NCBI GenBank assembly: GCA_903945175.1
Contig: CAJAUM010000051.1
Span: 62,001-126,000 of the forward strand
Length of the DNA stretch: 64,000 nucleotides
Origin: an uncultured Bacteroidales bacterium
Lineage (GTDB): Bacteria; Bacteroidota; Bacteroidia; Bacteroidales; FEN-979
Direction: 5' to 3'
Both the position numbers and the translations under genes were made by a program. Below are positions 23,955 through 34,882 of the stretch, piece by piece; position 1 is the first letter of the stretch; every line of letters starts with the position of its first letter. The notes below the pieces were generated by a model. That model saw nothing but the letters and a program-made list of their open reading frames with translations, had not been told where the DNA came from and ran no database searches.

Positions 23955-25139
23955 ATGAGTAGCAATCAACAAATAAGTATTAAAACGCTCGTGGTTGATG
24001 ATGAAATTGACCTTGAACCCCTGGTACGGCAGAAATTCCGTCGTCAAATCAGGGATGGCATCTATGATTTTATCTTTGCCCATAACGGCCTTGAAGCGCT
24101 GGCAAAATTGATTGAATTCCCGGAAATAGGGATCATCCTTTCCGATATTAATATGCCTGAAATGGATGGGTTGACGCTCCTCTCCAAGTTAAAGGAATTA
24201 AAAAATCCCGGTTTGAAAACAGTGATCGTTTCAGCATACGGGGATATGGAGAACATACGCACAGCCATGAACAGGGGGGCTTTTGATTTTGTGACCAAAC
24301 CGGTCAATTTTGAGGATCTTGAGATCACGATCAATAAAACCATGGAAGAGATCCTGCTGATCAGGCAGTCGCAGGAGGAGCATGACCAGCTGATATCAAT
24401 CAGGCAGGATTTAAATACGGCCCGCGAAATACAACAAGCCATTCTTCCGAAAACGTTCCCACCCTTCCCCGGCCGTACCGATTTCACAATATATGCCTCG
24501 ATGGTGGCCGCTAAAGAGGTTGGTGGCGACTTCTACGATTTTTTTATGATCGATGCCGACCGGCTTGGTTTTGTAATCGGCGACGTCTCCGGCAAAGGGG
24601 TCCCGGCGGCTATTTTCATGGCAGTGAGCAGAACCCTTATTCGTGCAACCGGTCTGAAAGGACTCCCGACGGATGAATGCATGAACTATGTGAATAACCT
24701 GCTTTGCAATGAAAGTGTCTCCTGCATGTTTGTGACCGTCTTCTACGGCATACTTAACACGGCAACAGGAGAGATTGAATATGTGAATGGTGGTCACAAT
24801 CCGCCCTATATCATGTCAACCACCGGAATTCGTAAAGTTGAAATGACCGGCGGTCCGATCCTCGGCTGCATGGAAGATTTTAATTATAAATCGAAGAAAA
24901 TACAACTTTTACCAGGAGAGCGTCTGTTCCTGTATACAGATGGCGTAACAGAGGCATTCAATTCCCTTGACCAGTGTTATGGAGATGACCGTCTTGAAGA
25001 CTTTCTGCGATCACACCTGGCCTCTTCGATCGAAGATGTGGTGAGGGAGTCGATGCAGGATGTAAATACATTTTCGACAGGGATGGCGCAATCTGATGAC
25101 ATTACTTACCTTGCTGTTTCATTCAACGGGCGCCCATGA
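23955..25139 (+). CDS. Response regulator with PP2C (SpoIIE/RsbU-like) phosphatase output
   Basis: 394 residues. The N-terminal receiver has Asp15, Asp16, phospho-acceptor Asp64 and Lys115 (VTKP). A coiled linker follows (about 125-165), then a PPM/SpoIIE-type phosphatase (about 170-390) with metal-binding EVGGDFYD and GDVSGKGVPAA motifs and the late DD pair (SDDITYLAV). Such proteins dephosphorylate a STAS anti-sigma-factor antagonist when the receiver is phosphorylated. The STAS gene follows 23 bases downstream, so substrate and enzyme are neighbours. No RsbW-type kinase is seen in the locus, so the opposing kinase must be elsewhere or be one of the histidine-kinase-like proteins here. Confidence 0.95.
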   Translation: MSSNQQISIKTLVVDDEIDLEPLVRQKFRRQIRDGIYDFIFAHNGLEALAKLIEFPEIGIILSDINMPEMDGLTLLSKLKELKNPGLKTVIVSAYGDMENIRTAMNRGAFDFVTKPVNFEDLEITINKTMEEILLIRQSQEEHDQLISIRQDLNTAREIQQAILPKTFPPFPGRTDFTIYASMVAAKEVGGDFYDFFMIDADRLGFVIGDVSGKGVPAAIFMAVSRTLIRATGLKGLPTDECMNYVNNLLCNESVSCMFVTVFYGILNTATGEIEYVNGGHNPPYIMSTTGIRKVEMTGGPILGCMEDFNYKSKKIQLLPGERLFLYTDGVTEAFNSLDQCYGDDRLEDFLRSHLASSIEDVVRESMQDVNTFSTGMAQSDDITYLAVSFNGRP

Positions 25140-25162
25140 TTTTCATTTCCTGCTGTTGAATT

Positions 25163-26374
25163 ATGGAAATCGTCAGTAAAAAATGGAATGATTTTGACGT
25201 TCTGGAATTACAGGGACGCATTGACGGTTTAACATCAGCCGGGCTGAAGCGCTCAATAGACCAGGCTGCTGTTGATGGACGGCGCAACCTGGTTCTTGAT
25301 TTCACCCATGTTTCCTATATGAGCAGCGCTGGACTTCGAATTATCCTCCAGAGCCACAAAACCCTGAAACAGATTGGAGGAAAGCTGGCGCTGGTTTCAG
25401 TCCCCTTGGCTGTTATGGATGTTTTTACCATCAGCGGCATGGCAAATTTCCTTGAAATTCACGATGAGTTGAAGGCCTTGCCTGAAACAAAACAACCCGG
25501 AGTCGATTGTACTGAAATCAAAGAAATGATGATTGATGGGATCAGTTTTGTATGGCGGGCCGGATCATCTTCGATCGGAAAATGCTTTACCTTCGGATCA
25601 GAGGATAAATTGCTGAGTTCCTCCTTTGGCCCGACAGATTCCATTGTTTTTAAACCGGCTGACATTACGTATGGATTGGGTCTTGCGGCCCTGGGAGATG
25701 ATTACTCCGATTATAAATCTTTATTCGGTGAGGCTGTGGTGATAGGGCATCATTTTTTCTCCTATCCGGCTGTTTTGAAACCAGAGGTAGACTATTCCTA
25801 TTTTTCACCGGAATCGCAGCATTCCCTGAATTTTTTATATGGCTTGGGGATCAATGGCGCATTCGCCCGGATACTCCGTTTTGATGTGAGCAGCCATCCA
25901 CGCAGTTTGGATATGCTTCTCAAAGCTGCCGGCGAGGTTGCCGAGACCGATACATTTGGTGTCGTGATACTGGGTATGAGCGGTGGAATTTATGGCATGC
26001 ACCTGAAAAAATCACCGATCCTTGAGCATCAACCTGAAAACGGCAATATTTTTGATGCCAGCCATTTCCCTCACTGGATGAATTTTTCAATAGAATCGGA
26101 GGATATCAATAAAACCATCGTCGCTTGTGGCATTGTCGTGAAAAATCCTGTATTGCAGCATCCCGCATCGAAATGGATCTTGCCAGAAAATGGAGGCATG
26201 CATCTCCATGCCGCTGTGTTCGAAAATGGCTTGTGGAGCAACAGCATCATGGAGTTCGAACTTGAACTGCATCGGATTATGATGGAGTTTGAACCACAGA
26301 AAGTCATTCATCTGTTACCGGAAACAAAGTTGAAAAGCGGTTTTATCGCTGTCATAAACCTGGAGAAGAACTGA
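25163..26374 (+). CDS. STAS-domain protein fused to a large unknown domain
   Basis: 403 residues. Residues 1-105 are a STAS domain of the SpoIIAA/RsbV class; Ser55 in YMSSAGLRII aligns with the phosphorylated Ser58 of SpoIIAA. Classical RsbV proteins stop there. Here about 290 further residues follow (about 113-403), with mixed alpha/beta character, no membrane helix, Gly-rich segments (GLGINGAFARI, VVILGMSGGIYGMHL) and many histidines. I do not recognise this domain. The stop TGA overlaps the start codon of the ABC permease fusion (ATG at 26374) by one base, tying the signalling genes to the transporter translationally. Confidence 0.88.
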   Translation: MEIVSKKWNDFDVLELQGRIDGLTSAGLKRSIDQAAVDGRRNLVLDFTHVSYMSSAGLRIILQSHKTLKQIGGKLALVSVPLAVMDVFTISGMANFLEIHDELKALPETKQPGVDCTEIKEMMIDGISFVWRAGSSSIGKCFTFGSEDKLLSSSFGPTDSIVFKPADITYGLGLAALGDDYSDYKSLFGEAVVIGHHFFSYPAVLKPEVDYSYFSPESQHSLNFLYGLGINGAFARILRFDVSSHPRSLDMLLKAAGEVAETDTFGVVILGMSGGIYGMHLKKSPILEHQPENGNIFDASHFPHWMNFSIESEDINKTIVACGIVVKNPVLQHPASKWILPENGGMHLHAAVFENGLWSNSIMEFELELHRIMMEFEPQKVIHLLPETKLKSGFIAVINLEKN

Positions 26375-28320
26375 TGGACCTGTGGATCGGCGCCGTAAAC
26401 CTTGGTATTCTTTACGCCTTCATGGCCATCGGCACCTTCATAACCTATAAACTGTATTCATTCCCTGATATCACCATCGATGGAACCTTTACAACAGGCG
26501 CCGCTGTGGCCTCTATCCTTATTGTAGATGGGTGGAATCCGATCCTGGTTCTACCGGTGGCGTTCCTGGTAGGCTCCATGGCAGGCTTTATCACAGGATT
26601 TATACACACCCGGTTTAAAATTGAAGGTTTGCTTGCCGGAATTTTGGTGATGACCGGCCTCTATTCAGTGAACCTTCACATCATGGGGAAATCAAACATC
26701 CCATTGCTGAACAGCCATACCTTTGTCTCCATCCTCACCGAAATGAACCCGGGTTTAAACGCTGAACTGTGGCACTGCATCTTTCTTTGTTTGGTGGTTC
26801 TGCTCTTCTGGATGCTGACCTCCCTGTTTCTGAAAACTGATGTGGGTCTCACCATGCGCGCCACCGGAAACAATCCGGCAATGGTTTCTGCACAGGGCGT
26901 TTCAGTGAACCGTATGAAAATATTCGGCATATCCATGGCCAATGGTTTTGTGGGATTATCGGGGGCGCTGATTGCACAATACCAGGGATTTGCAGATATA
27001 GGCATGGGGATCGGTTCGATTATTTTCAGCCTTGCAGCGGTCATCATCGGCGAGGCCATTCTTCGTCATCGCTCCATGTTTGTTAAAGTACTTGGCGTTA
27101 TTCTGGGATCCATCATCTTCAGGCTGGCTGTGGCCATGGCGCTTCATTTCGGGATGAATCCGAACGATCTGAAACTCATTACGGCCTTTTTTGTGCTGGT
27201 AACGCTCATCGCTTCGGGGGTCCTGGGATCAGGCTCCACAGGATGGCTGAAGTATGTCCAGAACCAATACAGCAGTAACCGCAAGGCTTTCCTGATTGTA
27301 TTCATGTTGGCGCTGCTTCTTATGGCAGGATACCTGATGCTGAAACCAGTCATTCTTAAAAAAGATTCCGGGAAAATGGTGAAAATCGGCCTGATCATGG
27401 CCAATAACAGCGATATTGTGACGCAAACACGCGATGGCATTCTGTCTGAACTAACCAAGCTGGGATATGTCAATGGAAAAAATTGTGTCATTCTCGAAAA
27501 AAATGCGGAAGGTGACATTCCAACGAACCACACAATCATTGGATATTATCTGAATAAACAAGTCGACATTTATGTGCCAATTTCAACTGCATCCACACAA
27601 GCAGCACTGAACAAAATCAAAGACAAACCGATCGTTTTTGCCACAGTCGCCAATCCATTCATGATTGGTGCAGGAACATCGCCCGTCAATCATCCCCCCA
27701 ATATAACAGGGGTTTACGGCCCGTCGCCCATCGGAGACCTTTTGGCTGTTTTCAGGCAAATGTATCCCGGGAAGGTGCGTATTGGCACCATCTATAATCC
27801 TGCCTATCCAAATACAGTTTCTAACTTAAGAGACCTGAAGAAAGCATTGGAGAACGACAAGGAGATCACCCTCGAAGAGGTCACCATCTCCGGTACCAAT
27901 GATGTATATCATGCCGCGCTTGCATTGTCAAATAAAAAGATTTGTGCATTTGTCCTCATCAATGATCTCACCGTGTTCAATTCATTCGAATCGGTGGTAC
28001 GAATTTCAAAGAACAGCAAAATTCCGATTTTTTCCTGTGATGCTGAACGTTTGAAGGACGGGGCGCTGATCGTTTATGGATTTGAGTATTTTGTGAGTGG
28101 CATGCAGGCTGCCCATCTCATCGACCGGATCAACAAAGGAGAAAGTCCTGCTCAAATCCCGTTCGAGAAATATAAAATTGTAACCTACGGAGTGAATTAT
28201 GATGTGGCCAGGGAACTTGGAATTTCAATTCCGTTGTCCATCCAAGCCGCAGCCGATGCATCCGTGAAGAATGGAAAATTAACGAAACCCCCTTTTATTC
28301 TGCCCAAAGAGGGGTCTTAA
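26374..28320 (+). CDS. ABC transporter permease fused to its substrate-binding domain (TrpX/TrpY-like)
   Basis: 648 residues joining two proteins that are normally separate. Residues 1-290 are a branched-chain-type permease with eight or so helices (PDITIDGTFTTGAAVAS near 30 is typical of the TrpY-like group). A further helix at about 307-326 leads out to a binding protein of the ABC_sub_bind family (PF04392-like, about 335-640), starting KIGLIMANNSD. Unfused relatives in Gram-positive bacteria import tryptophan or tyrosine; related 'ABC-type uncharacterised' systems are common elsewhere. Tethering the binding domain to the permease suggests a dedicated sensor-transporter. It shares a base with the STAS gene upstream; the ATPase starts 54 bases downstream. 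Confidence 0.92.
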   Translation: MDLWIGAVNLGILYAFMAIGTFITYKLYSFPDITIDGTFTTGAAVASILIVDGWNPILVLPVAFLVGSMAGFITGFIHTRFKIEGLLAGILVMTGLYSVNLHIMGKSNIPLLNSHTFVSILTEMNPGLNAELWHCIFLCLVVLLFWMLTSLFLKTDVGLTMRATGNNPAMVSAQGVSVNRMKIFGISMANGFVGLSGALIAQYQGFADIGMGIGSIIFSLAAVIIGEAILRHRSMFVKVLGVILGSIIFRLAVAMALHFGMNPNDLKLITAFFVLVTLIASGVLGSGSTGWLKYVQNQYSSNRKAFLIVFMLALLLMAGYLMLKPVILKKDSGKMVKIGLIMANNSDIVTQTRDGILSELTKLGYVNGKNCVILEKNAEGDIPTNHTIIGYYLNKQVDIYVPISTASTQAALNKIKDKPIVFATVANPFMIGAGTSPVNHPPNITGVYGPSPIGDLLAVFRQMYPGKVRIGTIYNPAYPNTVSNLRDLKKALENDKEITLEEVTISGTNDVYHAALALSNKKICAFVLINDLTVFNSFESVVRISKNSKIPIFSCDAERLKDGALIVYGFEYFVSGMQAAHLIDRINKGESPAQIPFEKYKIVTYGVNYDVARELGISIPLSIQAAADASVKNGKLTKPPFILPKEGS

Positions 28321-28374
28321 AAACAGGAAAACAAGGGGAGCTGCAAAGAATGCAAAAATTGTAATCCACTGACC

Positions 28375-29187
28375 ATGATCCGTATCCGAAACCTCCACAA
28401 GACCTTCAATGCTGGCTCTCTTGATCAGCTGACAGCCCTCAAAGAGATCAATGTTGACATTGGCGAACATGAATTTGTGACGATCATCGGAACCAATGGT
28501 TCGGGAAAATCAACCCTGTTGAATGCAATCGCGGGAAACATCAGGCCCGAGAAGGGTACCATTGAAATCAGCGGCAGGGATGTAACCAGTAAGCAGGATT
28601 TTCAAAGGGCGAAATATATTTCCAGGGTTTTCCAGAACCCCTACACCGGAACTGCCCCAGGCATGACCATCGCTGAAAATCTGCTGATGGCCTGGTTTCG
28701 GGGAAGAAGGCGGTATCCTGTTATAAGCTTGAAGGGATCCCTGAAACATCAGTTTAAGCAGCAACTTGCTTCACTCGACATGCAGCTAGAAGAACGCCTT
28801 GAAAACCTCATGGGGACGCTGTCGGGAGGTCAAAGGCAGGCTGTGACCCTGCTGATGGCGGTGCTTCAAACACCGAAAGTGCTTCTGCTTGATGAGCATA
28901 CTGCTGCACTTGATCCAAAAACGGCCGCCCAGGTAATCCGGCTGACCCAAAAATTTGTGACCGCAAATAAACTCACCACGGTCATGGTGACCCATTCAAT
29001 GCAGCATGCATTGGAGCTGGGGACGCGCATTCTCATGATGCACAACGGTCGGATAATTGAAGATATTCAAGAGAATGAAAAGCAAAACCTGACCATGGAG
29101 GATCTATTAAATAAGTTTGAAGATATCCGGAAAATTGAAAAGCTGACGCCCGAGCTGATGGAATCATTGAAAAATCAATATCGATGA
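28375..29187 (+). CDS. ABC transporter ATPase partner of the permease fusion (TrpZ-like)
   Basis: 270-residue cytoplasmic ATPase. Walker A is GTNGSGKST at 39-47, signature LSGGQRQA, Walker B VLLLDEHTAALDP and switch MVTHSM. The VxxxFQNPYxGTAPGMT region after the Q-loop is characteristic of the ATPases paired with ABC_sub_bind/TrpY-type permeases. It is the last gene of the plus arm and ends 6 bases before the convergent GNAT gene. Confidence 0.93.
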   Translation: MIRIRNLHKTFNAGSLDQLTALKEINVDIGEHEFVTIIGTNGSGKSTLLNAIAGNIRPEKGTIEISGRDVTSKQDFQRAKYISRVFQNPYTGTAPGMTIAENLLMAWFRGRRRYPVISLKGSLKHQFKQQLASLDMQLEERLENLMGTLSGGQRQAVTLLMAVLQTPKVLLLDEHTAALDPKTAAQVIRLTQKFVTANKLTTVMVTHSMQHALELGTRILMMHNGRIIEDIQENEKQNLTMEDLLNKFEDIRKIEKLTPELMESLKNQYR

Positions 29188-29206
29188 CTCCTGTCATAGT
29201 CTTTTT
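29184..29206 (+). terminator. Weak hairpin with T tract between convergent genes
   Basis: ATGAC, loop TCCT, GTCAT, then AGTC and five T residues. The stem is only 5 bp and overlaps the end of the ATPase gene and the convergent acetyltransferase stop. It could end plus-strand transcripts weakly. Confidence 0.3.
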
Positions 29207-29670
29207 ACGAAGAATACCTTCCCGTCACCCTCCGTATAAAAATCATTGATCTGTGCCTCTTTTGAGTACCCGATCCGGTCATAGAAATGGCGGGTGGGCG
29301 TGTATTTTTCGAGTGTGGAGGTTTCAGCAATCACGATGCGGCCGCCCATCTTTTTAATGGCTTTGTGCGTCTCTTCAATCAAAAGGTTCCCAATCCCCTT
29401 TCCACGAAAGTCGTTGTGTGTGGCAATCCAGTAAAGGTCAAAACTGCCTTCGGTGGCGGCAATGGGCCCGAAACAGCTATACGAAACCGTTTTTCCATCC
29501 GATTCGGCGAACAGGAAATGGTAGTCGCTTTTATCGCCAAGATCAAGGCGGTCCTGAACCAGTTCGACGGCAACAGGAACCTCAAAATCATAAAAAAATC
29601 CTGTGGATACAATGATATCCCTGACAATTTCAGCATCTTCCGGCCGAACCTCTGAACGAAACGTGATCAT
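29194..29670 (-). CDS. GNAT-family N-acetyltransferase
   Basis: 158-residue acetyl-CoA-dependent transferase. The acetyl-CoA loop is FRGKGIGNLLIEE near residues 90-102, preceded by the strand YWIATHNDF and followed by the C-terminal ERIGYxKE-like strand (YDRIGYSKE). It is the last gene of a four-gene minus-strand operon (aminomutase, ligase, ligase, acetyltransferase) and lies 50 bases after the preceding gene. It is much shorter than AblB, the beta-lysine acetyltransferase that partners aminomutases in osmolyte synthesis, so equivalence is not shown by the sequence, though the context suggests acetylation of a related amine. Confidence 0.9.
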   Translation of the reverse strand: MITFRSEVRPEDAEIVRDIIVSTGFFYDFEVPVAVELVQDRLDLGDKSDYHFLFAESDGKTVSYSCFGPIAATEGSFDLYWIATHNDFRGKGIGNLLIEETHKAIKKMGGRIVIAETSTLEKYTPTRHFYDRIGYSKEAQINDFYTEGDGKVFFVKRL

Positions 29671-29720
29671 GGTGTTTTTATTTGTTGTTGTGTTAATACC
29701 GCATCAGGGTGAATGTTGCT

Positions 29721-30692
29721 TTACCTGATTGCATCCTCAAGTACCCTTGAAATAACTTTATCAAAGGTCAATCCTCTCTTCTTCGAAGCAGCCATGAACC
29801 CTCCCGATTCTGATAAGCAGGGATTGAGGTTGATGTCGATCACCAGGGGTACCGATTCTTTGGTTACCCTGAAGTCGATGCGGACATACCCCTTGAATCC
29901 CATTTCGGTCCAGCATTTTTTACAGATGGCGATCATCTCGTTTTTCAGGGGTTCATCAGCCTTTGGTAATCGGAAGCTCCTCCGGGTGTGGGTATACTCA
30001 AATGAGTGCTCATCCCACTTTGATTTATAGCCCATCATCTTTGGCTTGTCTTCGGGATAGTCGACGAAGGTCATTTCAGCGAGCGGAAGCACCTCAGGCC
30101 CATCAGGACTGTAAAGGATAGAGTTATTAAACTCTCTTCCTTCAATGAATTCCTCAATGAAGTAGTGCTGCAGGCTTTTCTTTTTTATTCCTTGAATGAA
30201 TCCGGTATCGGATCCCATAAAAACACAATCCTCATCCAGCTCGAGCGATCCCTCTTCCCATATAGGCTTTATGATGTATTTCTTGTTGGGTTTCAGTTTG
30301 TGGCACTCGTCAAGCGTATAGCCTTCGGGGGTTTTAATTCCGATGGCATTCAGCTCCCTCTTCGCAAGATATTTATTTGAACAGTGGAACATGGGGATCA
30401 GGGGTGATCCGGTATAGGGAATCCTGACGAAGTTGAGAATTGATGTGGCAAGAAATGCGAACTCTCCTTTATTTCCGATCGTTTCGACCAGGTTGAAAAT
30501 GATATACGGGTTTCCCTTTTGGATTTGCCGGATGGCTGCTTTCAGATTCAGATCAACCTGCAGATAGTCAACATCGTAATTCAGTTTTTTTAATGCGCCA
30601 GTCACAAGATTTACCTGCTCAATGACATCGGCCTCATCATCCTTTGGTTTTTTTGATAACTTATTGTAAAGGATCAATACTTTTTGTTTCAT
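29721..30692 (-). CDS. ATP-grasp ligase, D-Ala-D-Ala-ligase-like (second of pair)
   Basis: 323-residue ATP-grasp enzyme that should join a carboxylate to an amine through an acyl phosphate. ATP-lid and metal motifs are visible: KKYIIKPIWEEGSLE, IEEFIEGREF and YVRIDFRV followed by IDINLNPCLS. Real Ddl enzymes end in a EINTxPG(M/F)T motif that orients D-alanine; here it is DINLNPCLSESG, so a different substrate is likely. It starts 14 bases after its neighbour at 30707, with which it shares fold and length but low identity. Both lie between the aminomutase and the acetyltransferase. Confidence 0.9.
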   Translation of the reverse strand: MKQKVLILYNKLSKKPKDDEADVIEQVNLVTGALKKLNYDVDYLQVDLNLKAAIRQIQKGNPYIIFNLVETIGNKGEFAFLATSILNFVRIPYTGSPLIPMFHCSNKYLAKRELNAIGIKTPEGYTLDECHKLKPNKKYIIKPIWEEGSLELDEDCVFMGSDTGFIQGIKKKSLQHYFIEEFIEGREFNNSILYSPDGPEVLPLAEMTFVDYPEDKPKMMGYKSKWDEHSFEYTHTRRSFRLPKADEPLKNEMIAICKKCWTEMGFKGYVRIDFRVTKESVPLVIDINLNPCLSESGGFMAASKKRGLTFDKVISRVLEDAIR

Positions 30693-30706
30693 TCCGGAGG
30701 AGTTAA

Positions 30707-31687
30707 TTATTGCAGCCCGTATCTTTTTCTGGCAGAGACCATGATCTCATGGATAAGTCGCTGAAAATCGTATCCATGTTTATAGGCAAGTATTGGCAGA
30801 TCAGAATGGATGTTGTCCAGTCCGGCCAAAGGGTTCACCTCAATAAAATTCGGTATGCCATTCCGGTCAACACGGATGTCGATCCGTCCGCCATCCTTGC
30901 AACCCAATACGCGCCAGGTTCTAAGGGCAAGATCGATGCATTTGTCAGCGATCTCTTTTTCTGGAACTTTGTATTCTATTCTGTCGTGGTAATTTGATTT
31001 GGAATGATAGGAATAGATGTTATTGGTATCGGCCTTTACATAAAGAATTTCCATGATGCCTGCCGGATAGCCCTCGGGGCCGCTGCCCAGCACCCCCACG
31101 GTGAATTCCCTCCCGGGGAGATATTCTTCGACCAGCAATCCCGACGGATATTTTGAAAGCAGATCCTGGCAAATGCTGGTCAGTTCCTCAGGACTGGCGA
31201 CCTTCGACATGGCGCTGATCCCTTTGCCGGTACCCTCGGCATTGGGCTTTACAAACAAAGGATAGGTCAGGCTGACCGATGAACAGTCTTCAATGCGTTC
31301 AATTATGGCAAAATCGGGGGTGGGTATCCCGAAATCCCTGACAACCCGCTTTGTCATTCCCTTATGCAGGGTCAGCGACAGCACCAGGGTGTCAGAAAAG
31401 GTGTAGGGTATATTGAAAATATCGAGCAAGGCCGGAACCTGGGCCTCCCGGCCAACTCCATTCAATCCTTCACAAATGTTGAAAACCATGTCCCACCGGT
31501 CGCCTTTTGAAAGGCGTTGAATTAAATGGCGGACATGGCCGATCCGGTCAGTCTTATATCCCAATTGCTGTAAAGTCAGGTCGATGGCCTCGATGGTGCT
31601 ATCCCGGTCAAATTCCGCAGTCTCCTCTTCGCTGTAGCCCTCCTTCAGGTAATCTGACCGTAAATCGTAGGTTAATCCTATGGTCAT
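30707..31687 (-). CDS. ATP-grasp ligase, D-Ala-D-Ala-ligase-like (first of pair)
   Basis: 326-residue ATP-grasp enzyme. Visible motifs are the entry segment WDMVFNICEGLNG, the ATP-binding YPLFVKPNAEGTGKGI, VEEYLPGREFTV and the metal-binding RIDIRVDRNGIPNFIEVNPLAG. The typical Ddl ending EVNTxPGLT is replaced by EVNPLAGLD, as in many amino-acid or peptide ligases of unknown role. It begins only 3 bases after the aminomutase stop, so the two are translationally coupled. With the second ligase it could build a di- or tripeptide around the aminomutase product. Confidence 0.91.
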   Translation of the reverse strand: MTIGLTYDLRSDYLKEGYSEEETAEFDRDSTIEAIDLTLQQLGYKTDRIGHVRHLIQRLSKGDRWDMVFNICEGLNGVGREAQVPALLDIFNIPYTFSDTLVLSLTLHKGMTKRVVRDFGIPTPDFAIIERIEDCSSVSLTYPLFVKPNAEGTGKGISAMSKVASPEELTSICQDLLSKYPSGLLVEEYLPGREFTVGVLGSGPEGYPAGIMEILYVKADTNNIYSYHSKSNYHDRIEYKVPEKEIADKCIDLALRTWRVLGCKDGGRIDIRVDRNGIPNFIEVNPLAGLDNIHSDLPILAYKHGYDFQRLIHEIMVSARKRYGLQ

Positions 31688-31690
31688 GGG

Positions 31691-32962
31691 CTATTGGGTA
31701 AAATCGGGGTATCTGAAGATCTTCTCTTCATAGTTTTTCAGTATGGCATATCCATCTTCTCTCCCGACAAAGTAATCGGGAAGCAGAGGGATTTTTCCGC
31801 CGCCACCCGGGGCGTCAACGACATAGGTTGGAACTGCATATCCGCTGGTATGACCACGTAACCCTTTAATAATTTCAAGACCCTCCGCAATGGTTGTGCG
31901 GAAGTGTCCTGAACCTACTACCGGGTCGCATTGATACAGGTAATAGGGGCGAACCCGTATTTTCAGCAACGCATGCATGAGATTTTTCATCACCTGAACA
32001 TCATCATTGATCCCTTTGAGCAGTACAGTCTGACTTCCCAACGGAATCCCTGCATTGGCCAGCCTTTCGCACGCCTCTTTCACTTCAGGCGTAATTTCGT
32101 CAGCGTGGGTAAAATGAATACTCATAAAAAGCGGATGATATTTTCTGAGCATATTGACCAATGGCCGTGTAATTCGCTGCGGAAGAACCGCCGGTACTTT
32201 GGTGCCGATGCGAATGATTTCGACATGCGGGATATTCCGCAAACGGGAAAGCAGATATTCAACATGCAAATCGGGCATGGTAAGCGGATCTCCCCCTGAT
32301 ACAAGCACATCGCGAACTTCATGGTGCTGTTCAATATAATTCAACCCGGCTTCCCACGATTTGACACCGATGTGGCATTTGCTTTTTGCCACCATGCGGG
32401 TTCGTGTACAGTAGCGGCAATAGGTGGAACAAAAGCCAGTCACAAGGAACAAGACCCGGTCGGGATAACGGTGCACAATATTCGGCACAGGGCTGTCATG
32501 CTCTTCCATCAGGGGATCTGATGCTTCTCCCGAATGCAGAAGGAATTCGTCGAATACAGGTACGACACTCTTTCGCAAGGCTTGTTCGGGATTGTTCCTG
32601 TCAAGAAGACTTATGTAATAAGGTGAAATCCGCAATGGCAGTGACTGTCCATTGGGCCCATCGGGTTTAACTTCATTATCCGAAAGGGTTACAAACCTGG
32701 CCAATTGATCAATGGAGCGGGCGCTGTTTTTAATCTGCCAGTGCCAGTTATTCCAGTCTTTCACCGTGGCTTCGGGAAAAAAGGTCTGTAAAAATTCAAG
32801 GGAACGATCACTGATGGCGGGTTTGTCCCGGTCAACGCGTGATTTGAAGTATTCGTCTAAAAGGGTTGCTTCGTCTATGAAGGTGGGCTGACTTGGAGGT
32901 TCTTCTTCTTCTGATAATTCGGTATGGGTGATGATCAATTTTTCGTTTGGACTTTTTTCCAT
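31691..32962 (-). CDS. kamA: Lysine 2,3-aminomutase-like radical SAM enzyme (KamA family)
   Basis: 423-residue radical SAM and PLP enzyme that moves an alpha-amino group to the beta carbon. The [4Fe-4S] cysteines are Cys178, Cys182 and Cys185 (CSTYCRYC). The PLP lysine is Lys390 in PGGGGK. The YLYQCD motif keeps the Asp that, from memory of the clostridial structure, contacts the lysine side-chain amine, favouring lysine over glutamate as substrate; this needs an alignment. The length and N-terminal domain fit KamA/AblA rather than the shorter EpmB. It heads an operon with two ATP-grasp ligases and an acetyltransferase rather than with lysine-fermentation genes, so a biosynthetic role is more likely. 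Confidence 0.92.
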   Translation of the reverse strand: MEKSPNEKLIITHTELSEEEEPPSQPTFIDEATLLDEYFKSRVDRDKPAISDRSLEFLQTFFPEATVKDWNNWHWQIKNSARSIDQLARFVTLSDNEVKPDGPNGQSLPLRISPYYISLLDRNNPEQALRKSVVPVFDEFLLHSGEASDPLMEEHDSPVPNIVHRYPDRVLFLVTGFCSTYCRYCTRTRMVAKSKCHIGVKSWEAGLNYIEQHHEVRDVLVSGGDPLTMPDLHVEYLLSRLRNIPHVEIIRIGTKVPAVLPQRITRPLVNMLRKYHPLFMSIHFTHADEITPEVKEACERLANAGIPLGSQTVLLKGINDDVQVMKNLMHALLKIRVRPYYLYQCDPVVGSGHFRTTIAEGLEIIKGLRGHTSGYAVPTYVVDAPGGGGKIPLLPDYFVGREDGYAILKNYEEKIFRYPDFTQ

Positions 32963-33172
32963 TTTATAGTTTGCCGGTTTGGATAGTAAATTTTATTGTG
33001 ACAGCTGACTGCCGAATTGTAGTTTTTTATTTGTAAATCAATTCATTACGTTAAATAGCATGAAACCAATCCTACAAAGAAAATTCCGATGCAAATAGGT
33101 AACATTTTTATGTATTTTTGACACTGCTAACGATTTTTTTTCAACAAAATTATGTTAATAAAGCTACACTGA
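32963..33172. promoter_or_regulatory. Divergent 210-base intergenic region
   Basis: AT-rich gap between the aminomutase operon (-) and the hydrolase gene (+). A plus-strand TATTTTTG at 33113-33120 and a minus-strand TAATTTTG at 33152-33145 match the Bacteroidota -7 consensus, but neither has a convincing -33 TTG. I see no small reading frame or RNA-like fold. Confidence 0.4.
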
Positions 33173-33943
33173 ATGAAGCTGTTTTGTCGCCAGTTTGGAA
33201 CCGGTCAGCCGGTCGTGATATTGCACGGATTATTTGGTCTGTCAGACAACTGGGTCACCTTTGGACGACAGTTGAGTGAAACTTACCGGGTTATCATTCC
33301 CGATCTGCGAAATCATGGTCAATCGCCCCATAGCAAGGTGTTCGATTTTCCTTCATTGGAAGATGATCTGATGGAGCTGGTTGAAGAACATGCATTGAAA
33401 AATCTATTCCTTCTCGGACACTCGCTGGGTGGTAAGGCTGCCATGTTTTTCGCACTGCATCATCCGGAGATGGTCAGTAAACTGGTTATTGCCGATATTT
33501 CTCTGCGCAAATCACCCCCCAACAGGCAGCATCAGCAGTTACTGAATGCAATGATTTCTGTTGATTTCAGTATGGCTTCCTCCCGAAGCGATGTGGATAA
33601 ACAACTGCAGGCAACGGTAAAGAGTCAGAAACTCCGTCAATTCCTGTTGAAAAATGTCTATTGGCGCGACCGGAACAGCCTGGATTGGCGGCTCAACCTC
33701 AATGCCATCAACGAAAACCTGCTATCCGTTTTTGAAGGGGTAGCAGTTCCTGGCGAATTCAATAAACCAACTTTGTTTATCCGGGGAGGAAGTTCCGATT
33801 ATATCATGGATGGGGATATTCCTGAGCTGAAAATGAAATTCCCCGGGGCTGAGGTAAACACCATTGCGAATGCTTCACATTGGGTTCACGCTGATGCTCC
33901 CGGGGAATTTTTCGGACTGGTGAAAAATTTCCTTGGCCGCTGA
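33173..33943 (+). CDS. Alpha/beta-hydrolase (YbfF-like esterase)
   Basis: 256-residue cytoplasmic hydrolase. The nucleophile is Ser84 in GHSLGG, the acid probably Asp209 and the base His236 (ASHWVHAD). The oxyanion HG motif is LHGLFG at 18-23. Closest in look to the YbfF/ABHD11 group of small acyl esterases. It is a single plus-strand gene between two minus-strand runs; the next gene is convergent and its stop codon abuts this one. The natural substrate is unknown. Confidence 0.9.
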   Translation: MKLFCRQFGTGQPVVILHGLFGLSDNWVTFGRQLSETYRVIIPDLRNHGQSPHSKVFDFPSLEDDLMELVEEHALKNLFLLGHSLGGKAAMFFALHHPEMVSKLVIADISLRKSPPNRQHQQLLNAMISVDFSMASSRSDVDKQLQATVKSQKLRQFLLKNVYWRDRNSLDWRLNLNAINENLLSVFEGVAVPGEFNKPTLFIRGGSSDYIMDGDIPELKMKFPGAEVNTIANASHWVHADAPGEFFGLVKNFLGR

Positions 33944-34882
33944 TTAGTAGCGGATAATCTCTATCTTGGAGATGGCCGTCTTGATGGTCAGATATATTTT
34001 GTTTTTACCGGTTGTAAAGTTGGCCGTTTGGTAAAGTCCATCTCCCTTCTTCGTAAAGCCATCGAATTCCTTACTGATCATAAATGATTCAGATTTAATC
34101 TGGCACCCCGATTCCTTAGGAATTTCTACCTTGATTGAGGATGCACCTGCATTGAATGTCATTACGGTGAGAGGCTGAATAGCCCCAATTTTTATGTCGA
34201 TCGAAGAGGCCCCTGCATTGATGGTGGTTGTATCAATTTTGTAATCCCGAAGATCCATCAGAATTTCAGCGGCCCCGATATCAAAGTTGAGATTCCAGGA
34301 AGGTTTGTCGCTGAGTTTGATTTCAACCTTGTTCTCGCTTACAGAATGGCGTATTCCTGAGTTTTCAAGTGACAGGTTGATCATCTTCTTACTGCTATCA
34401 CTGGTAGTGGTCAGGGAGTAATTGCCGATATCACCGGTTTTATTGAAGGTAAGAAAATCGCTGGTAATCCCTTGAAGGATGAAGTTGCCTGCAGCAGCCT
34501 CAAGACGCAATTCTCCCTTGCCGGTCAGGGAATCGTAGGGAACACTCAGGTTTTGGGGTTGATAATTATAGGTATTTGTCGTATCTTCATTATCCTCCCA
34601 ATCCCGGTCCGAAAAACCATGGAAATTATGAAAATCAAACCAGGATGAGCGTTCAGATATCCGGTTGAAAAAGATGACGGTCAGGGCGAGTATGCCTGCC
34701 AGGGAAATGATTTTAATTCCATCTTTAATTGGAAGAATGGAAATACCCCACAGGATGAGAATCAGAGGCCACAGGCTCCAGAGGGTGCGGAAACCAAATT
34801 CAAGCACCCCAAAATTATTCAGCATAAACAGGATCCCGATTGCAATCAGGATAAAGGCCCAAAATACATGACGATATTTCAT
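33944..34882 (-). CDS. LiaF-like membrane protein with toast-rack domain
   Basis: 312 residues. The first 75 contain three or four hydrophobic helices (FWAFILIAIGILFMLNNFG is the typical LiaI/LiaF-type start). Residues 115-310 form repeated beta strands of DUF2154/toast-rack type, with two similar segments (INAGASSIDIKIG, FNAGASSIKVEIP). Such proteins sense envelope stress together with PspC-like partners, and a PspC gene is directly upstream, 12 bases away. Cell-envelope stress adaptation is the likely role. Confidence 0.85.
   Translation of the reverse strand: MKYRHVFWAFILIAIGILFMLNNFGVLEFGFRTLWSLWPLILILWGISILPIKDGIKIISLAGILALTVIFFNRISERSSWFDFHNFHGFSDRDWEDNEDTTNTYNYQPQNLSVPYDSLTGKGELRLEAAAGNFILQGITSDFLTFNKTGDIGNYSLTTTSDSSKKMINLSLENSGIRHSVSENKVEIKLSDKPSWNLNFDIGAAEILMDLRDYKIDTTTINAGASSIDIKIGAIQPLTVMTFNAGASSIKVEIPKESGCQIKSESFMISKEFDGFTKKGDGLYQTANFTTGKNKIYLTIKTAISKIEIIRY

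Follow-up and report, generated by a model that had tools for sequence, protein, structure and literature searches.

A compact four-gene locus

The window, a stretch of 64,000 nucleotides from an uncultured Bacteroidales bacterium, carries four ORFs on its minus strand between positions 32962 and 29194. They follow each other in the order kamA-ligA-ligB-gnat, separated by 3, 14 and 50 bases. The first gene, kamA (31691..32962, minus strand), encodes a lysine 2,3-aminomutase-type radical SAM enzyme of 423 aa, as judged from profile, PDB 2a5h and residue matches. The next two genes, ligA (30707..31687, minus strand; 326 aa) and ligB (29721..30692, minus strand; 323 aa), were assigned by Pfam, predicted fold and clade as Ddl-like ATP-grasp ligases A and B, the latter being divergent. 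The last gene, gnat (29194..29670, minus strand), encodes an acetyltransferase of 158 aa, which according to Pfam and blastp is a RimI-like GNAT and not AblB.

In the ORF map, kamA is separated by an intergenic stretch (32963..33172) from a divergent alpha/beta-hydrolase gene, beyond which lie PspC- and LiaF-type envelope genes. The promoter of the four-gene set is presumably located in this stretch. The pattern TTTG-N17-21-TANNTTTG, which we take to be the Bacteroidetes-type promoter, has 4 matches in the window versus 2.1 expected, none of them beside the four-gene set or within 32963..33172. An Rfam search of positions 28000-34000 and a PADLOC search for anti-phage defence both returned no match. 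We also considered a KamA-LigA fusion produced by stop-codon readthrough, as a single stop interrupts the frame that kamA and ligA share, which holds for the window and for 14 of the 15 same-genus loci with both genes (L038 being the exception). This idea was rejected, because the stop is TAA in 8/15 and TAG in 7/15 and the spacing varies.

Conservation of the module in two gene orders

The order kamA-ligA-ligB-gnat is found in the window's family. LigB orthologues were present in all 18 other genomes of the same genus, in 6/6 of the same family and in 1/16 other genomes of the order. All 25 of these genomes encode KamA, and in 24 of them kamA shares a contig with the ligases; in G015 it is unlinked. 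GNAT adjoins LigB in 24 of 26 genomes, the window counted, and is missing next to LigB of L026. The same-genus flanks say little since they are syntenic: the divergent hydrolase gene is found in 13/13 loci, and a substrate-binding-protein-like gene (read from an ORF of L032) flanks 12/13, the window lacking it.

A second class of the phylum, inferred to be Ignavibacteria, has the order ligA-ligB-gnat-kamA. All four genes were present in each of the 11 fetched second-type regions with kamA and also in a region from a genome that is probably that of Melioribacter roseus, which is cultured and completely sequenced. Across these 12 regions the four genes are common to 12, recG to 11 and other neighbours to at most 6, a count that leaves out ORFs antisense to kamA and in which most neighbours are unannotated. 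A gene of ~740 aa adjoining ligA was at one point considered a conserved fifth partner. It was dropped, as it turned out to be RecG (Pfam for two, with homologues in 11/12 second-type regions). More widely, among 68 genomes from other classes of the phylum, 55 have kamA no more than 3 kb away from a ligase, 10 have it unlinked and 3 lack it. The LigA profile matched 167/245 genomes of the second cassette's class, and the LigA ORF of one genome, G425, is short. These searches covered plasmids and viral contigs as well as genomes from the phylum to which the window belongs, together with one genome-contig scan reaching close relatives only.

The sequence-only reading had taken the four genes for a single operon and proposed a genome-neighbourhood search. 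The gaps were confirmed, and the search showed that the set recurs as a module in two classes and is conserved in two gene orders. Recurrence in the family of the window and again in another class shows that the arrangement is not due to chance. Its wide retention, mostly beside recG, suggests a role in primary metabolism.

The conserved neighborhood also bears on whether the genes make a secondary metabolite, such as a small beta-lysine antibiotic or siderophore. KamA-family genes do occur in clusters of that kind, for example in blsG clusters on plasmids, and one KamA gene adjoins ATP-grasp and diaminopropionate genes. However, besides recG, no additional gene such as one for an NRPS or an exporter is found in more than 6 of the 12 second-type regions, where most neighbours are unannotated, and the breadth of LigA matches in the class points to primary metabolism. 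We therefore regard a secondary metabolite as rather unlikely.

KamA keeps lysine-type pocket residues

KamA scores above the cutoff of TIGR00238 (370 bits, cutoff 199.2). Its best equivalog match, TIGR03820 (AblA), is below the cutoff (467 bits, cutoff 525.4) and stops at profile position 360 of 417; according to Pfam, the protein is without most of the LAM C-terminal domain. The KamA of the second type is likewise under the AblA cutoff (470 vs 525 bits). KamA matches PDB 2a5h with an E-value of 9e-127. The initial expectation that the aminomutase keeps its catalytic residues and a QCD motif proved correct: the QCD motif is present, and the radical SAM motif CxxxCxxC and the PLP-binding Lys390 are kept in KamA of the window and in 10 other module rows.

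We presume that Asp293 and Asp330 of LAM hold the lysine side chain. Their equivalents, Asp346 and Asp383, are found in 11/11 module KamAs and in 3/3 annotated AblA proteins; the second is replaced by Thr in both proteins annotated as arginine aminomutases. With both Asp residues of the lysine pocket kept, the earlier assignment of lysine fits, and L-lysine as the predicted substrate of KamA is supported. The Asp pair is nevertheless no proof of lysine, because three plasmid KamAs carry both residues as well. The KamAs of the two cassette types form separate clades, which may mean that the lysine step was recruited on two occasions.

Membership in the KamA family would also be compatible with an enzyme of lysine fermentation or an EpmB-like enzyme of EF-P beta-lysylation, whose neighbours at this locus would then be unrelated. 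Fermentation genes had been named at the outset as possible true partners. A search for kce (PF05853) found it in none of 16 genomes, with the control giving a signal in 1/14, and kamD (PF09043) was likewise found in 0/16, although here the control was silent. Moreover, KamA falls below the EpmB cutoff (253 bits, cutoff 369), and the linkage between kamA and the ligases is conserved. Either role thus appears very improbable.

LigA and LigB are distinct from canonical Ddl

Both ligases score above the Pfam cutoff for Dala_Dala_lig_C and keep the core ATP-grasp residues in the alignment. Their predicted models have the Ddl fold, with a TM score by query length of 0.79 to 8evz_A for LigA and 0.73 to 3r5x_A (17% identity) for LigB. 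Nonetheless, they differ from Ddl proper. LigB is below the cutoff of the NCBIfam Ddl models in the 19 families shown and LigA in the best 25 of 41; against the best model, NF002378 (cutoff 243), they reach 88.4 and 157.6 bits, respectively. In the phylogeny, LigA of both types (96/88) and LigB of both types (100/99) form clades of their own, with Ddl apart (100/100). At the site of Ddl Tyr216 in the alignment, 31/31 LigB rows carry Trp and LigA is mixed. The sequence-only reading had predicted Ddl-like folds without the D-Ala-specific ending. The folds agree with this prediction, and the Ddl ending is indeed missing from LigB, but it is partly retained in LigA, where E283, N285, G289 and S295 are each present in 26/27 rows. 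Both ligases have an acidic residue where Ddl has His63, which was considered a possible pointer to a basic substrate and then dropped; it is uninformative because it also occurs, as judged by eye, in 2/5 plasmid ATP-grasps.

A separate canonical Ddl scores above the cutoff in 11 of 12 genomes, including all 8 other genomes of the same genus. None was found in the window's MAG, which, given its presence in those genomes, probably reflects an assembly gap. Together with the distinct clades, this led us to reject LigA and LigB as the cell's own D-Ala-D-Ala ligase, and the concern that they act in peptidoglycan synthesis was not borne out. A different link to the cell envelope would be that the ligases make a modified peptidoglycan peptide or put beta-lysine on an envelope component. 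Their Ddl fold, the lack of a canonical Ddl in the window's MAG and the envelope-type genes past the divergent hydrolase gene are in line with such a role. On the other hand, canonical Ddl is present elsewhere, as described above, and in the 12 second-type regions recG alone accompanies the four genes. We consider an envelope role quite unlikely.

The acetyltransferase is not AblB

The GNAT protein passes the Pfam GNAT cutoffs and is 39% identical to a GNAT of the second type (L080). Against the AblB profile it scored 18 bits (cutoff 205), and blastp against two AblB proteins gave no meaningful match. A search for AblB across genomes found it in 0/16, with the control giving a signal in 5/14. 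The acetyltransferase is thus not AblB-like, as had been anticipated.

The known AblA/AblB pathway produces N-epsilon-acetyl-beta-lysine through lysine 2,3-aminomutase followed by an acetyltransferase (PMC12776343). The four-gene set shares these two steps, and the absence of AblB from the 16 genomes would be expected if GNAT replaced it, with KamA and GNAT making the plain N-acetyl-beta-lysine osmolyte and the ligases engaged in a side reaction. However, the set differs from AblA/AblB in having two amide-forming ligases and an acetyltransferase not recognisably related to AblB, and both ligases stay with kamA in 24/25 genomes of the window's lineage and in 12/12 second-type regions. We consider a plain N-acetyl-beta-lysine pathway unlikely. 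An osmolyte role, as initially suggested, is not supported.

Alternatively, the acetyl might be a temporary protecting group: GNAT would block one amine, ligation would take place at the other, and a deacetylase would remove the acetyl later. In G425, a GNAT-histone-deacetylase fusion gene does lie between ligB and gnat (L079 7540-9291). Yet among the cassettes listed, only that of G425 contains the fusion, a similar fusion in G003 is unlinked to the cassette, and no such deacetylase was found in 6 of the 12 genomes searched. The histone-deacetylase link to the operon was set aside, and a protecting-group role seems improbable.

A proposed pathway to an acetylated beta-lysine peptide

We propose that the set directs the non-ribosomal synthesis, in the cytosol, of an acetylated di- or tripeptide with beta-lysine. 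KamA would convert L-lysine to beta-lysine. LigA and LigB would activate the carboxylate of an amino acid at the expense of ATP and join it to an amine, yielding a beta-lysine-containing di- or tripeptide, and GNAT would acetylate a free amine on beta-lysine or on the peptide. This reading builds on gene content, conservation in two orders, the folds (two of them predicted models), the catalytic motifs and the lysine-type pocket of KamA. Our suggestions go beyond this as regards the use of beta-lysine by the ligases, the sequence of the steps, the further amino acids and the acetylation site. We put the probability of such a pathway at roughly one half; the simplest product to assume is still an acetylated di- or tripeptide with beta-lysine. 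It might serve as a solute, a storage compound, a protectant or a signal.

The likeness to NAGGN synthesis noted earlier holds in logic, as both combine acetylation with peptide-bond formation. That pathway comprises the GNAT-containing Ngg and AsnO, with an acetylated dipeptide as the product (PMC8070244). The likeness does not extend to the enzymes: the four window genes include no AsnO-type amidotransferase, GNAT and the ligases are separate proteins, and the set has another amino acid, a mutase step and two separate Ddl-type ligases. In plasmids of Thioflavicoccus, Rhizobium and Sinorhizobium, a KamA gene also adjoins an ATP-grasp-type ligase gene. In contrast to the four-gene set, these pairs have one ligase gene and no GNAT among the genes listed, the plasmid gene tables being incomplete; in 3/3 rhizobial KamAs of this paired kind, Cys replaces the second lysine-binding Asp.

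The set had been thought to be undescribed, and indeed no description was found among the literature matches listed, a coverage that most subscription journals fall outside. The main texts of two Melioribacter roseus papers do not mention "aminomutase". A broader proposal, to which we give somewhat less than an even chance, is that Ignavibacteria and some Bacteroidales make an unrecognised primary metabolite, an acetylated beta-lysine peptide built independently of ribosome and NRPS by an old four-enzyme module specific to this task, which occurs in two orders and persists even after one gene has relocated. If so, a large group of environmental bacteria would make a small molecule for which, judging from the searched literature, apparently nobody has looked, and LigA and LigB would represent new enzymes for amide formation with a beta-amino acid. 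With the genes present in the probable Melioribacter roseus, the product would be open to direct mass spectrometry.

Gene organization in the window

Four consecutive ORFs on the minus strand make up the locus: kamA (32962-31691), ligA (31687-30707), ligB (30692-29721) and gnat (29670-29194). The gaps between them are 3, 14 and 50 bases, exactly as the sequence-only reading had it. A divergent alpha/beta-hydrolase gene precedes the set and a convergent gene for an ABC-transporter ATPase follows it; GC content here is inside the range of the window. Farther upstream of kamA are LiaF-, PspC- and TatC-type genes; farther out past gnat come three genes, coding for an ABC permease-binding-protein fusion, a STAS-domain protein and a response-regulator-SpoIIE protein, which could belong to stress regulation. 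None of these outer genes is a common neighbour of the set in the 12 regions of the second class described below.

The fusion is a single 648-aa ORF (26374-28320, plus strand) with an ABC permease part (Pfam BPD_transp_2, 8-276) followed by a substrate-binding domain (ABC_sub_bind, 340-629); its ATPase gene comes next (28375-29187), and a similar long ORF is present in several same-genus loci. The response-regulator-SpoIIE gene and the STAS-domain gene that follows it (23955-26374, plus strand) form a partner-switching-like pair, and the former is close to the set in several same-genus loci as well. Directly past gnat, convergent to it, one fetched locus (L032, 9541-10788) has a gene whose product looks like an ABC substrate-binding protein of the amino-acid type; 12 of 13 same-genus loci share a homologue, which the window lacks.

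Conservation of the module

In the window's own lineage (41 genomes, LigB orthologues scoring 279 bits or more), 26 genomes have LigB: the window's, all 18 others of the genus, all six of the family and one of 16 others of the order. KamA is present in all 25 besides the window's own and shares the ligase contig in 24 of them, though in one (G021) the match is partial; in the other (G015) KamA sits on a separate contig, and the ligase locus (L047) has no kamA upstream. The GNAT gene adjoins ligB in 24 of 26; of the two exceptions, one locus (L024) is cut near a contig end and the other (L026) has a different ORF there. Among 295 genomes of the class (E 1e-40), only the window's own matched, and the set is therefore rare inside its class. 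The window's genome is a 4.4-Mb draft in 155 contigs. Titles of 16 related GTDB contigs are mostly Bacteroidales or Bacteroidetes MAGs, and at least six carry what we take to be lake names (Pavin, Loclat, Alinen). One record titled Alphaproteobacteria bacterium (L042) resembles the Bacteroidales MAGs in both its cassette and its flanks, and is probably a mislabelled MAG record.

Across the phylum (395 genomes, E 1e-30), LigB matched in 70 genomes: the window's, a second one from its class (G202, KamA absent) and 68 from other classes. KamA occurs in 65 of the 69 besides the window's own. In the 68 genomes of other classes, kamA lies within 3 kb of a listed ligase match in 55, elsewhere in 10, and is missing in three. 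Twenty regions were fetched: 11 have a second cassette type, ligA-ligB-gnat-kamA, two have the window's order (G036 and G425) and seven have lone ligases. All four genes were also located at 2.133-2.137 Mb in G228, which we infer to be Melioribacter roseus. Since this genome and those of the 11 regions all occur in the class sample around G425, we infer that this second class is Ignavibacteria; there, a LigA profile (E 1e-35) matched 167 of 245 genomes. With ORFs antisense to kamA excluded, the four genes are found in 12 of 12 regions (the 11 plus G228), recG in 11 and any other gene in at most six. Therefore, the module consists of these four genes.

KamA is a likely lysine aminomutase

KamA scores above the TIGR00238 cutoff. 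Its best specific model, the AblA equivalog, falls short of cutoff (467 vs 525 bits), and by profile search most of the C-terminal domain of lysine 2,3-aminomutase (LAM) is missing. The alignment with the solved LAM structure 2a5h spans 359 positions. At the positions of LAM Asp 293 and Asp 330, which we take to bind the lysine side chain, both residues are Asp in all 11 module KamAs and in three of three AblA proteins (AblA and BlsG names are as annotated in plasmid records). The second position is Thr in both annotated arginine aminomutases and Cys in three of three rhizobial KamAs of one kind. The Asp pair supports lysine as the substrate, short of proof, because three plasmid KamAs of unassigned role (Thioflavicoccus, Deinococcus and Rhizobium BT03) share it. 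Against the glutamate aminomutase, compared by profile alone, KamA scores 432 vs a cutoff of 650.

Rhizobial kamA genes (L104, 7019-8143; L108, 6962-8131) adjoin a gene annotated as biotin-carboxylase-like, and these KamAs, with Cys at the second Asp position, may use a substrate other than lysine. On a Thioflavicoccus plasmid (L101, 4590-10071), a kamA gene is convergent with genes for diaminobutyrate aminotransferase, SbnA, mu-crystallin and ATP-grasp proteins that lie in a row, possibly another beta-amino-acid peptide cluster.

LigA and LigB resemble D-Ala-D-Ala ligases

Profiles, predicted structures (mean pLDDT 88 for LigA and 93 for LigB) and a fold search, in which the best matches are D-alanine--D-alanine ligase (Ddl), all assign LigA and LigB to the Ddl-fold ATP-grasp enzymes. 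Among the models listed (for LigA, the best 25 of 41), no Ddl cutoff is passed by either protein. In what we assume to be Ddl numbering, equivalents of K97, K144, K215, R255 and D257 are intact in 27 of 27 LigA and 31 of 31 LigB rows of the alignment, and that of N272 in 26 of 27 (the odd row is truncated) and 31 of 31. The position of Ddl Tyr 216 is Trp in all 31 LigB rows; in LigA it varies. Both ligases had been said to lack the D-Ala-specific ending; this holds for LigB, where the position taken to align with the substrate-loop Ser is Ser in six of 31 rows, and only in part for LigA, which has the Ser in 26 of 27. Judged by sequence, both thus appear to be active ligases, probably of a specificity other than D-Ala-D-Ala.

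Would the pair instead serve peptidoglycan synthesis? A separate canonical Ddl, found in 11 of 12 genomes, including eight of eight other same-genus genomes searched, speaks against this; only the window's own MAG lacked one, probably through an assembly gap.

LigA of G425 (L079, 5634-6503) has 290 codons vs 326 in the window and a short C-terminus, which could reflect a frameshift or assembly error. A LigB-like gene on an IMG/VR contig (L077, 7971-8933) adjoins an Ogg-HhH glycosylase gene. Four second-class genomes have an extra lone LigB paralogue (L083, L088, L091 and L095), and in L083 mutS comes after it.

GNAT and the proposed product

GNAT exceeds the Pfam GNAT cutoffs. Its match to RimI is weak (38 vs 86 bits) and that to AblB negligible (18 vs 205), in keeping with the earlier view that it is not AblB-like; a direct protein comparison with AblB likewise gave nothing meaningful. 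GNAT of a second-type cassette (L080) is 39% identical to that of the window (E 8e-39); thus, GNAT is part of the module in both cassette types.

In the proposed pathway, KamA likely converts lysine to beta-lysine, LigA and LigB, with their predicted fold, would form amide bonds on putative substrates at the expense of ATP, and GNAT would presumably acetylate. This would yield an acetylated di- or tripeptide with beta-lysine in it. The G425 set includes a GNAT-histone-deacetylase fusion gene (L079, 7540-9291), which raises the side idea that the acetyl is a protecting group, although this is a single case. A fusion gene of equal size in G003 is unlinked (L126, 7817-9562).

Known systems were searched for in 16 genomes. 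AblB was not found (control positive in 5 of 14), nor was kce (1 of 14), one of the fermentation genes that had been named as possible true partners of KamA; KamD gave no match, with its control silent as well. No RNA family or defence family matched at the set. The suggested osmolyte function did not advance beyond analogy with acetyl-beta-lysine (PMC12776343) and NAGGN (PMC8070244). The lake-like record titles argue mildly against a high-salt role. Every enzyme family here is already known, and the system as a whole would be an amino-acid-derived small-molecule pathway. Among the papers that our literature searches listed, none describes the four-gene module, and the sequence-only reading likewise knew of no description.

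Origin of the set

In the trees, LigA proteins of both cassette types group together (96/88), as do LigB proteins of both types with the lone paralogues (100/99); Ddl stands apart (100/100), joined by one Streptomyces plasmid protein. The KamAs of the two types form separate clades, the second closer to AblA with weak support. Because the ligases group and the KamAs do not, the two ligases and GNAT may make up the older core of the module. The lysine mutase may be either very divergent or recruited twice and, if it was recruited twice, the case for a need of beta-lysine would be stronger.
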